A DNA stretch of 41,063 bases from Methanobacteriota archaeon (GTDB lineage: Archaea > Halobacteriota > Methanosarcinia > Methanosarcinales > Methanosarcinaceae). Shown one piece after another: positions 13,916-37,467 of this stretch. The stretch's first letter is position 1, and each line of letters starts with the position of its first letter. The translations under genes and the position numbers were made by a program. Location of the stretch: assembly GCA_016841265.1 (NCBI GenBank), contig JAENZL010000010.1, positions 56,648 to 97,710 on the forward strand. Direction: 5' to 3'. The notes under the pieces were generated by a model. That model saw nothing but the letters and a program-made list of their open reading frames with translations, searched no databases and had not been told where the DNA came from.

Positions 13916-14065
13916 GCCTGAGCCTGCATATTCTTTTGTCGTATATAAGGTTTGTTTCGAAGGGACTGTTCTGAAGTATCCCAGTTCCCAGTCTCAGTTA
14001 CATATATTAGTTACCGATTTCAGTTCCCATCTAAGGTTCCCATAATATCATAGATAAGAAACTAA

Positions 14066-14071
14066 TTTATA
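14066..14071 (+). promoter_or_regulatory. TATA box of the ferredoxin gene (leaderless)
   Basis: TTTATA, with a purine-rich BRE-like gaaac just upstream, lies about 25 bp before the GTG/ATG at 14093-14096. That spacing would put transcription initiation at the start codon itself. No proper ribosome site is present, consistent with a leaderless mRNA. Confidence 0.5.
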
Positions 14072-14095
14072 CCGCTTTCCCCAAATGATCCGGTG

Positions 14096-14281
14096 ATGCC
14101 CGAGAAAAATGGATACGTCGTTGTTTTCGGATGTAAAAGGTGCGGAAAATGTAAGGATGTTTGCCCCGAGGGCGCCATATACGAGGAAAATGAACTGGCG
14201 AAAATCGACCAGGATAAATGTACCCAGTGTATGATATGTATTGACGAGTGCACGAACAAATCAATCATTTACATGGAATGA
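14096..14281 (+). CDS. small 2x[4Fe-4S] ferredoxin
   Basis: This 61-residue protein has two cluster-binding motifs: CKRCGKCKDVCPEGA and CTQCMICIDECTN. Eight cysteines in the CxxCxxCxxxC pattern imply two [4Fe-4S] clusters; the second lacks the usual proline after the last cysteine. It is a soluble electron carrier or a small subunit of an iron-sulfur enzyme; the partner is unknown. A GTG at 14093 directly before the ATG is an equally possible start. The TATA spacing suggests a leaderless transcript. The stop codon lies in the first copy of a 23-bp triplication that leads into the cyclase gene, so the two genes form one transcript. Confidence 0.9.
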   Translation: MPEKNGYVVVFGCKRCGKCKDVCPEGAIYEENELAKIDQDKCTQCMICIDECTNKSIIYME

Positions 14282-14337
14282 TTTCAACAAATTACATGGA
14301 ATGATTTCAACAAATTACATGGAATGATTTCAACAAA
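14269..14337 (+). repeat. three 23-bp tandem copies across the ferredoxin-cyclase junction
   Basis: Three exact copies of a 23-bp unit built around acatggaatgatttcaac. Each copy contains ATGA, where a stop and a start overlap. The first copy ends the ferredoxin gene and the third starts the cyclase. The first two copies create two 8-residue ORFs (14278-14304 and 14301-14327, peptide MISTNYME), each overlapping its neighbours by ATGA. The unit is not a multiple of three, so only the last ATG reads into the cyclase. Confidence 0.95.
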
Positions 14338-15145
14338 TTACGTTAATGAGGTGGTCACCCTGCTGAATGTTCCTGCTCAGGGAAAAGTAATCGACATCAC
14401 AGTTCCGATCTCTCCTTCTACCAGGATCTTTCCCGGGGACCCGGAGCCTTCAATCAAAAGCGTCTACACTCTTGAAGCAGACGGTTGCGCAGTTTCAAAA
14501 CTCTCTTTCGGGAGTCATACCGGCACCCATGTTGATGCCCCTTCCCATATTCTGAAAGACGGAAACCCGGTTGACAATCTGGAACTCAGAAGTCTGATGG
14601 GCAGGGCACTTATTCTGGACGTTTCTTCAAAAACCGGTGCTCTTTCAGTGGATATCCTTAAATCCGCGTTCCGAAATTCCAGCAATCCTGAGGGGATTAG
14701 GATCCTCCTCCTGAAGACAAAAAGCCCGGGGTCCCAGACCGTGACCGGGTCGGACCTGAATGATACCGATGCCCGTCAGGCTGAAGGTTCGGAAAGCAGA
14801 AAAAACGAGGAAAACGGAGAAAACGGAGAAAACGGGGAAAACGGAGAAAACGGGGAAAACGGAGAGTTCGATAAGTCAGTTTACCTGGAAGGAAGTGCCG
14901 CGACATGGATCGTCAATAACGGGTTTACCACTGTTGGAATAGACAACTTCTCCGTGGACAGCCTTGCTTCCGAAAACCTTCCTGCTCATCACATCCTACT
15001 TTCAAACCGGGTAAATATCGTGGAGTGCCTGGACCTGAGTCCCGTGGGAGCCGGGAACTACTTTTTCATCTGCCTGCCCCTGAAAATCGAGGGTTGTGAC
15101 GGGGCTCCCGCACGAGCTGTTCTGCTTCAGGAGTCGGGGATTTGA
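14324..15145 (+). CDS. cyclase-family metal-dependent hydrolase (kynurenine formamidase-like)
   Basis: The 273-residue protein has the cyclase family signature: IDITVPISPSTRIFPGDPEP near the start, then SFGSHTGTHVDAPSHI, the metal-binding histidine/aspartate motif at about residues 64-79. A late VGIDNFSVDS and ENLPAHHILLSNRVNIVE complete the fold. Relatives hydrolyse cyclic amides or formamides, for example KynB, but many archaeal members have no known substrate. An insertion of about 55 residues (about 133-187) contains six Glu-Asn-Gly repeats and is absent from typical members, which run about 210-220 residues. Start choice: only the ATG of the third 23-bp repeat copy is open through the gene. 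A GTG at 14351 is an alternative. Confidence 0.85.
   Translation: MISTNYVNEVVTLLNVPAQGKVIDITVPISPSTRIFPGDPEPSIKSVYTLEADGCAVSKLSFGSHTGTHVDAPSHILKDGNPVDNLELRSLMGRALILDVSSKTGALSVDILKSAFRNSSNPEGIRILLLKTKSPGSQTVTGSDLNDTDARQAEGSESRKNEENGENGENGENGENGENGEFDKSVYLEGSAATWIVNNGFTTVGIDNFSVDSLASENLPAHHILLSNRVNIVECLDLSPVGAGNYFFICLPLKIEGCDGAPARAVLLQESGI
14810..14863 (+). repeat. in-frame 9-bp coding repeat (Glu-Asn-Gly x6)
   Basis: Six 9-bp units (gaaaacgga or gaaaacggg) inside the cyclase gene encode (ENG)6. The array sits in a charged insertion just before the conserved YLEGSAATWIV segment. Because the unit is a multiple of three, copy-number change would lengthen or shorten the loop without a frameshift. 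Confidence 0.95.
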
Positions 15146-29880: not shown

Positions 29881-29972
29881 ATTAATGTCCGGAATAACCC
29901 TCCCTCCTGTTTAATTTGCTTGCAGTTCCGTGCTCTGCAAAACGTGATTTTCCTTTAATCCGTTCTACTTGT

Positions 29973-30071
29973 CTTCAACTTGTCTTCAACTTGCCTTCAA
30001 CTTGCCTTCAACTTGTCTTCAACTTGTCTTCAACTTATCTTCAACTTATCTTCAACTTATCTTCAATTTTT
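29973..30071. repeat. 11-bp tandem repeat, about nine copies
   Basis: Nine near-identical copies of cttcaacttgt, with tgc and tat variants grouped in blocks. The array lies just beyond the 3' end of the DUF63 gene. It creates an open plus-strand frame (NLPSTCLQL type) that is an artefact of the repeat. Confidence 0.95.
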
Positions 30072-32634: not shown

Positions 32635-33101
32635 AAGAAGTTAAGGCCCAAAAGATTATAAATTGTAAGAAGTTAAGGTCTTAATAAGTTGAAACCCTGA
32701 ACTTTAAATGGACGAAGCTCGAAATAAATAATAAGGGATGGTTTGTTCATTCTCGGACAGATCCTGCCCCACAATCAGAAATGATTTAAAGGATTTGATT
32801 CAGAGTTATCTGAGTGTATTTCAAGGAGAATTTAATTCGGAGCAGCTTTACAGGACAATTAGCGGTCCGGATAACCATTCAGGGAAATAAGCAATCTGAT
32901 AAACTAATAAACCAGATAATAAAACACTCAAAATAATAATCTGGGCAATACTTAAATCCGATAATTAAGGGGTAACACCCAATTCCGATAATTATGGATG
33001 ACACTTAATTCCGATAATTAAGGGGTAACACCCAATTCCGATAATTAATCACCAGAAGAAAACGGGATACAGGCCCGAGAATAATCCATAGGAGATAAAT
33101 A
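32635..33101. other. intergenic between egsA and the UPF0179 gene
   Basis: This holds two copies of agaagttaagg (about 32636 and 32668) and the 53-bp-period duplication at 32957-33047. No open frame of interest is seen. A GGAGAT ribosome site for the next gene begins at about 33091. Confidence 0.5.
32957..33047. repeat. 38-bp direct duplication, period 53 bp
   Basis: The 38-bp segment beginning tccgataattaaggggtaac occurs at 32957-32994 and again at 33010-33047. Each copy itself holds two aattccgataatta-like elements, so the core appears four times. It lies 55-145 bases before the UPF0179 start and could hold protein-binding sites. Confidence 0.9.
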
Positions 33102-35835: not shown

Positions 35836-35895
35836 TAATTTGCTTAGCTTTAATTTGCTTAGCTTTAATTTGCTTAGCTTTAATTTGCTTAATTA
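35836..35895. repeat. 15-bp repeat, four copies (block 2)
   Basis: Three exact copies of taatttgcttagctt and one truncated copy, about 145 bp from block 1. The spacing makes a dispersed regulatory site possible, but polymerase slippage is the simpler origin. Confidence 0.9.
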
Positions 35896-37345: not shown

Positions 37346-37360
37346 ATTTAGTAAACCCCC

Positions 37361-37467
37361 AGTAACCTTTTTTCCTTGAACAGTATCTTTTTTCCTTGCA
37401 AAGTAACCTTTTTTCTTTGCCCGGAACCTTTTTTCATTACTCAGTATATTTTTTCTTGCTTTTACTC
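37361..37467. repeat. imperfect 20-22-bp tandem repeat, five copies
   Basis: Five degenerate units of the form agtaaccttttttccttg. The T-rich core is on the plus strand, so it reads as A-rich in the transcript of the flanking minus-strand genes. It fills the space between the GT3 gene and galT. Confidence 0.85.

Follow-up and report, generated by a model that had tools for sequence, protein, structure and literature searches.

What is repeated at this junction?

When the junction between two genes is present three times over, has the cell acquired a device that sets the output of the second gene, or has the DNA simply stuttered in a place where stuttering does little harm? The question is raised by the window, by which we mean the whole 41,063-nucleotide stretch of DNA analysed here, from the genome of a methanogenic archaeon of the Methanosarcinaceae, in which a 23-bp unit, TTACATGGAATGATTTCAACAAA, stands between a ferredoxin gene and a cyclase gene in three exact copies (14269–14337, with starts at 14269, 14292 and 14315), directly followed by a partial fourth copy, TTAC (14338–14341). 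Our answer, to which we would give a probability of roughly 64%, is that the array is a slippage-type duplication in a repeat-rich genome, that the cyclase starts behind it, that the mini-ORFs within it are incidental, and that cyclase output depends little, if at all, on the number of copies.

The two genes and the elements of their junction lie on the plus strand. The upstream gene (14096–14281) translates into a 2x[4Fe-4S] ferredoxin of 61 residues (Pfam Fer4, E=9e-11) that ends in SIIYME, with its stop TGA at 14279–14281. A TATA/BRE-like element, GAAACTAATTTATACCGC, was found by eye at 14058–14075, and every sister locus has a near-identical element at about the same distance 5' of the ATG that opens the ferredoxin, so that a putative promoter of the ferredoxin–cyclase transcript may be placed there. 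The downstream gene, counted from its likely ancestral start (14351–15145), matches the putative cyclase family PF04199 (E=5e-23; 82.4 bits against a curated cutoff of 23.1) and scores 122.5 bits with the NCBIfam arylformamidase model TIGR03035, for which the cutoff is 223; it is a relative of the arylformamidases that is no assigned member of TIGR03035. The gene has its own second tandem array, found by TRF, a 9-bp unit repeated seven times in frame and read as ENGENG and so on (14802–14865), which is far shorter in the cyclases of sister species, and a 13-bp tandem array lies 3' of the gene. At the 3' end of the cyclase in two sisters (L004 and L006) there is an in-frame TAG three codons before the TGA, where the window has TCG; the family being one that uses pyrrolysine, this TAG might either end translation or be read through.

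Each 23-bp copy contains one ATGA (14278, 14301 and 14324). The first is the 4-nt overlap of the ferredoxin stop with a predicted mini-ORF, MISTNYME (14278–14304), which is not conserved in the sister species G003; the second opens an identical predicted mini-ORF (14301–14327), whose own stop is in turn joined to the following ATG by a 4-nt overlap; and from that ATG, at 14324, an in-frame extension, MISTNYVNE (14324–14350), leads into the cyclase, the frame being open to 15145. The initial annotation had described exactly this, a stop/start overlap carried three times on a 23-bp unit and an ATGA-linked chain from the ferredoxin through two MISTNYME ORFs to an ATG in the cyclase frame, and coordinates and translations bear it out. 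Its further statement that the last copy alone opens the cyclase is correct on paper, and tracing of the ORFs gives the same outcome with one, two or three copies.

Is such an array unusual in this DNA?

Identical copies placed head to tail in this way exceed chance: TRF reports a period of 23, 3.2 copies, a 100% match and a score of 146, and block-shuffled windows yield 0–2 TRF arrays of any kind at a score of at least 50, against 26 rows in the real window. Those 26 rows (23 merged arrays in 41 kb) correspond to 5.6 arrays per 10 kb, and four family genomes carry 3.9–5.1 per 10 kb in a background of 800 kb, 200 kb from each of four relatives. The exact triplication is far beyond chance as a sequence, yet it is not unusual in kind for this DNA. 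Other arrays in the window, mostly outside long ORFs, are of 16 bp x 6 (1–99), 11 bp x 9.5 (29963–30066), 27 bp x 3.4 (32957–33048), 15 bp x 3.7 (35836–35891) and 20 bp x 4.9 (37360–37459).

The 23-bp unit itself occurs at this one locus and nowhere else in its own genome or in the genomes of the genus, on which ground we rejected it as a dispersed motif; a scan of viral contigs for other copy numbers within the species gave no match. The same solitude weighs against a role of the repeat at the level of DNA or RNA, be it as a protein-binding site, a cyclase promoter, a structured RNA or an sRNA, and we consider such a role very improbable. One could argue for it from the fact that the unit is kept more than its ATGA (G003 has a unit with TAA), and from a weak Rfam match to SNORD47 (24 bits, where the cutoff is 50), but the match is below threshold and falls in an archaeal coding junction, and there is no stable fold (z = 0.17). 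A structured RNA or Rfam family was rejected on these grounds, the single match being put down to chance, and no TATA-like box for a cyclase promoter was seen by eye within the repeat.

How did the array come about?

We compared the window's own genome (G000) with three sister species of the same genus (G001, G002 and G003), four species in all. Copy number differs between these close relatives, with 3.2 copies in G000, about 2.6 in G003, one in G001 (ATGGAATGATGTCAACAATCTGCATTAAATGAGGTGATT) and at least two, of variant form, in G002, a comparison made between species with one genome for each. In G003, whose genome is a single contig, the units read ATGGAATAA, with TAA for TGA, and ATGA is absent from the array. 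In G002 one unit is followed by a 380-N assembly gap (L033 2107–2486), which falls exactly inside the array, and then by a variant unit; if the two pieces are joined in one particular way, with an overlapping T, the cyclase frame would open directly at the first ATGA. That gap, in a place where assemblers struggle, could lead one to suspect that the copy number in the window is itself an error of assembly, the genome being a draft and probably metagenome-assembled. We give this suspicion next to no credence, since 73 bp is below a typical read length and the gapless G003 genome also has the array.

In a tree of the cyclases the one-copy G001 branches off as the sister of the remaining three species, and for this reason the simplest history would be one ancestral duplication, with later changes of copy number and homogenisation. 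In a wider comparison, the spacer between the ferredoxin stop and the core of the cyclase shows significant periodicity (p<0.05) in 19 of 30 species, which are phylogenetically non-independent; among ordinary co-directional spacers 24 of 123 show it. Junction periods across the family are 23, 21/42, 22, 20, 19 and 11, and because these are unrelated they point to several separate repeat events. In many Methanosarcina-like species (L044, L048, L064, L066 and related loci of the sister genus) 21-bp repeats extend the N-terminus of the cyclase in frame; each of these units begins with RTG, a possible start codon, at 7, 14, 21, 28, 35 and 42 codons before GK. Just 3' of the ferredoxin stop in G113 (L051), a species of the sister genus, there is an independent 19-bp array of about four copies, each with stop, SD-like sequence and start (TAAGGCGTTTAATATGGAA), which gives mini-ORFs of ME and MK before the cyclase, in parallel to the window.

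The seed for slippage is likely to have been the resemblance of the ferredoxin tail (ATGGAA and stop) to the cyclase head, which in many species is also ATGGAA. One might go further and see in the junction a place where stop/start arrays arise again and again (with units of 23 bp here, 19 bp in G113 and 21 bp, in frame, in other species) and serve as a dial, evolvable and self-repairing, by which the coupling or the N-terminus of the cyclase is set; we hold this idea to be a long shot.

Where does the cyclase start?

Most likely it starts just behind the array. The initial annotation let the cyclase open at ATG 14324, which we doubt: this start is not conserved. In G001 and G002 indels that lie behind the last unit and before the cyclase (one base more in G001, one base fewer in G002) put the last copy out of frame, and G003 has ATA in place of the ATG. 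GTG 14351, ten codons before the GK(V)IDIT motif, is the sole standard in-frame start common to all four species. The sister genus has ten species in which an RTG stands ten codons before GK (ATG in nine, GTG in one), and four of those starts sit in AATGAGATG, which corresponds to AATGAGGTG of the window.

The position of the SD-like site points the same way. We took the anti-SD from the 16S 3' end GGATCACCTCCT, read in G003 and G033 (it was not found in the assembly of G000 itself), and used the tail GGATCACCTCC. By RNA duplex energy the strongest match of the region is GAGGTGGTC at 14348–14356, with energies of -15.5 to -16.3 kcal/mol in the four species, and the site is conserved in the sisters as GAGGTGAT(C/T), that is, GAGGTG(A/G)T. 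The best match before ATG 14324 reaches only -3.1 kcal/mol, compared with -15.5 at 14348–14356, and the duplex scan of the region found no SD upstream of ATG 14324, of the mini-ORFs or of GTG 14351.

The site overlaps GTG 14351, and its GAGGTG lies 6 nt before CTG 14360, a codon that is also conserved. Our reading is that the cyclase probably initiates at one of these two codons, helped by GAGGTGGTC; they are alternatives to each other, and both lie behind the array. Against a start of its own one may hold that GTG 14351 has no SD and that CTG is rare as a start, and the codon used is something that we infer. In Methanosarcina mazei most mRNAs have SD sequences (PMC7531240), and CTG is reported as the start of 5% of unannotated small ORFs (PMC11456600).

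Do the mini-ORFs hand ribosomes on?

The function proposed for the chain was that ribosomes reinitiate at each ATGA, pass through the two 8-residue ORFs to ATG 14324 and pay a toll at every copy, so that the number of copies tunes the ratio of cyclase to ferredoxin. There is precedent for the elements of this scheme: in E. coli 15 nt of the upstream gene are enough for termination-reinitiation (PMC10666635), and in Haloferax 4-nt overlaps couple genes (PMC10666635, PMC6728339). The ATGA chain in the window is perfect, and copy number varies between species. We traced paths of termination-reinitiation, through 4-nt and 1-nt overlaps, between the ferredoxin stop and the frame of the cyclase, and the two are connected in G000 (with one, two or three copies) and in G001, whose path runs through MMSTICIK and MR to the GTG; from the last unit of G002 a path runs through MISTIYIMR to GTGA.

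Several things stand against this model, which we judge unlikely. Apart from the lack of conservation of ATG 14324, random spacers are connected in roughly 25–75% of simulations (about 74% of G001-like spacers and about 25% of array-like ones with the frame random), and since connection is so frequent the chain does not speak for selection; the idea that selection keeps it open was rejected because the simulated connection rate was not exceeded. G003 has no ATGA and is not connected from the ferredoxin end, though its ferredoxin is dead and this may mean relaxation. There a 1-nt deletion close to the start disrupts the ferredoxin (L035/L006), whose second cluster motif has also lost a Cys to Tyr; the frameshifted ORF ends 93 nt before the GTG, and the cyclase is nonetheless intact.

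The locus also differs from what is expected of an ATGA-coupled pair. The ferredoxin stop overlaps the ATG of a mini-ORF, and the ATG of the cyclase frame, 14324, lies 42 nt further on; overlap and start are not conserved among orthologues, with breaks in G001 and G002 and with ATA and no ATGA in G003; and the SD that usually, though not obligatorily, precedes the overlapping start is missing before every ATGA, an SD being often important for reinitiation (PMC6728339). The ATGA itself needs little explanation, because a conserved ferredoxin ending in YME (GAA) and TGA contains it automatically. Six species of the sister genus whose ferredoxin ends in TGA have this ATGA, but the ORFs that it opens there are of only 2–7 residues and unconnected to the cyclase (in G120, of the same genus, it opens straight into the cyclase), and the motif, incidental to GAA-TGA, is therefore no reliable signal of coupling there.

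A milder proposal would be that the genes are coupled and the array does no harm, each copy handing the ribosome on with its stop and start while selection merely keeps the chain open. That ORF tracing comes out the same with one, two or three copies suits this proposal, and because little coupling is left once genes lie about 20 nt apart (PMC10666635), the window, should its two genes be coupled at all, would have to rely on the mini-ORFs as a bridge. Also in its favour, AATGAGGTGA in G001–G003 collects ribosomes from any of the three frames and passes them, by 4-nt overlaps, to the GTG of the cyclase. Yet connection by chance is as common as stated for G001-like spacers, most Methanosarcina-like species retain the gene pair with a long and unconnected spacer, and the window has lost the collector of the sister loci L004, L005 and L006 (within 14345–14354, where it has GTGGTC, by an A-to-G change of its own), so that we regard coupling of this kind as improbable. 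A literature search on bacterial or archaeal repeats whose copy number tunes reinitiation found nothing relevant.

What is the best explanation?

We return, then, to slippage and a start behind the array. Tandem slippage would have duplicated the ferredoxin–cyclase junction in a piece that spans the last codons and stop of the ferredoxin (ATGGAATGA), with the result that each extra copy ends in a stop and ATGA of its own. The array would be tolerated because of this, both flanking genes being left intact with or without translation of the mini-ORFs. For the cyclase, initiation would take place at a site of its own, either GTG 14351, the homologue of the RTG start in relatives, or else CTG 14360; the mini-ORFs would be incidental, and a change in copy number, presumably neutral, would alter cyclase output little or not at all. 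Some observations speak against this reading: the ferredoxin stop is linked to the cyclase frame by 4-nt overlaps in G000 and G001, just as coupling would want, and G113 independently carries its 19-bp array of stop, SD-like sequence and start. It is possible, as a residual alternative, that the copies preserve or modulate coupling; tuning of the cyclase by copy number is possible but unsupported. What stands of the initial annotation is its anatomy and a copy number that does differ between sister species, whereas the function that it proposed finds little to lean on.

If we are right, a tandem duplication over an operon junction can be harmless, since each copy supplies its own stop and start, and a neat chain of ATGAs does not have to serve regulation. 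A single spacer in two genera has taken up repeats of unrelated period, which give either mini-ORFs out of frame or N-terminal heptads in frame, each with a start codon, and such junction repeats form a natural series for asking whether repeats of this kind affect translation in methanogens.

How does it compare with known systems?

Bacterial spacer VNTRs can alter expression, and the array resembles them in that copy number, which here differs between species, changes the distance from the stop to the next start. With the ATGA-overlap pairs that show TeRe (Huber et al. 2019, 2023: PMC6728339, PMC10666635) it shares 4-nt overlaps and co-directional archaeal genes, but the overlaps involve mini-ORFs and not two conserved genes, and the final ATG is neither conserved nor preceded by an SD, a conserved SD-like site lying behind it. 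In form the array is like the repeats of Borg elements (PMC9879509), which are also exact head-to-tail units that differ between relatives and are found both in spacers and in frame within ORFs, as the ENG array and the 21-bp heptad extensions of relatives are here. Fast-evolving tandem repeats of that sort were found to be virtually absent from the genomes of the Methanoperedens hosts (PMC9879509); the repeats described here, in contrast to those of Borgs, are chromosomal in Methanosarcinaceae, few in copies and degenerate in most species.
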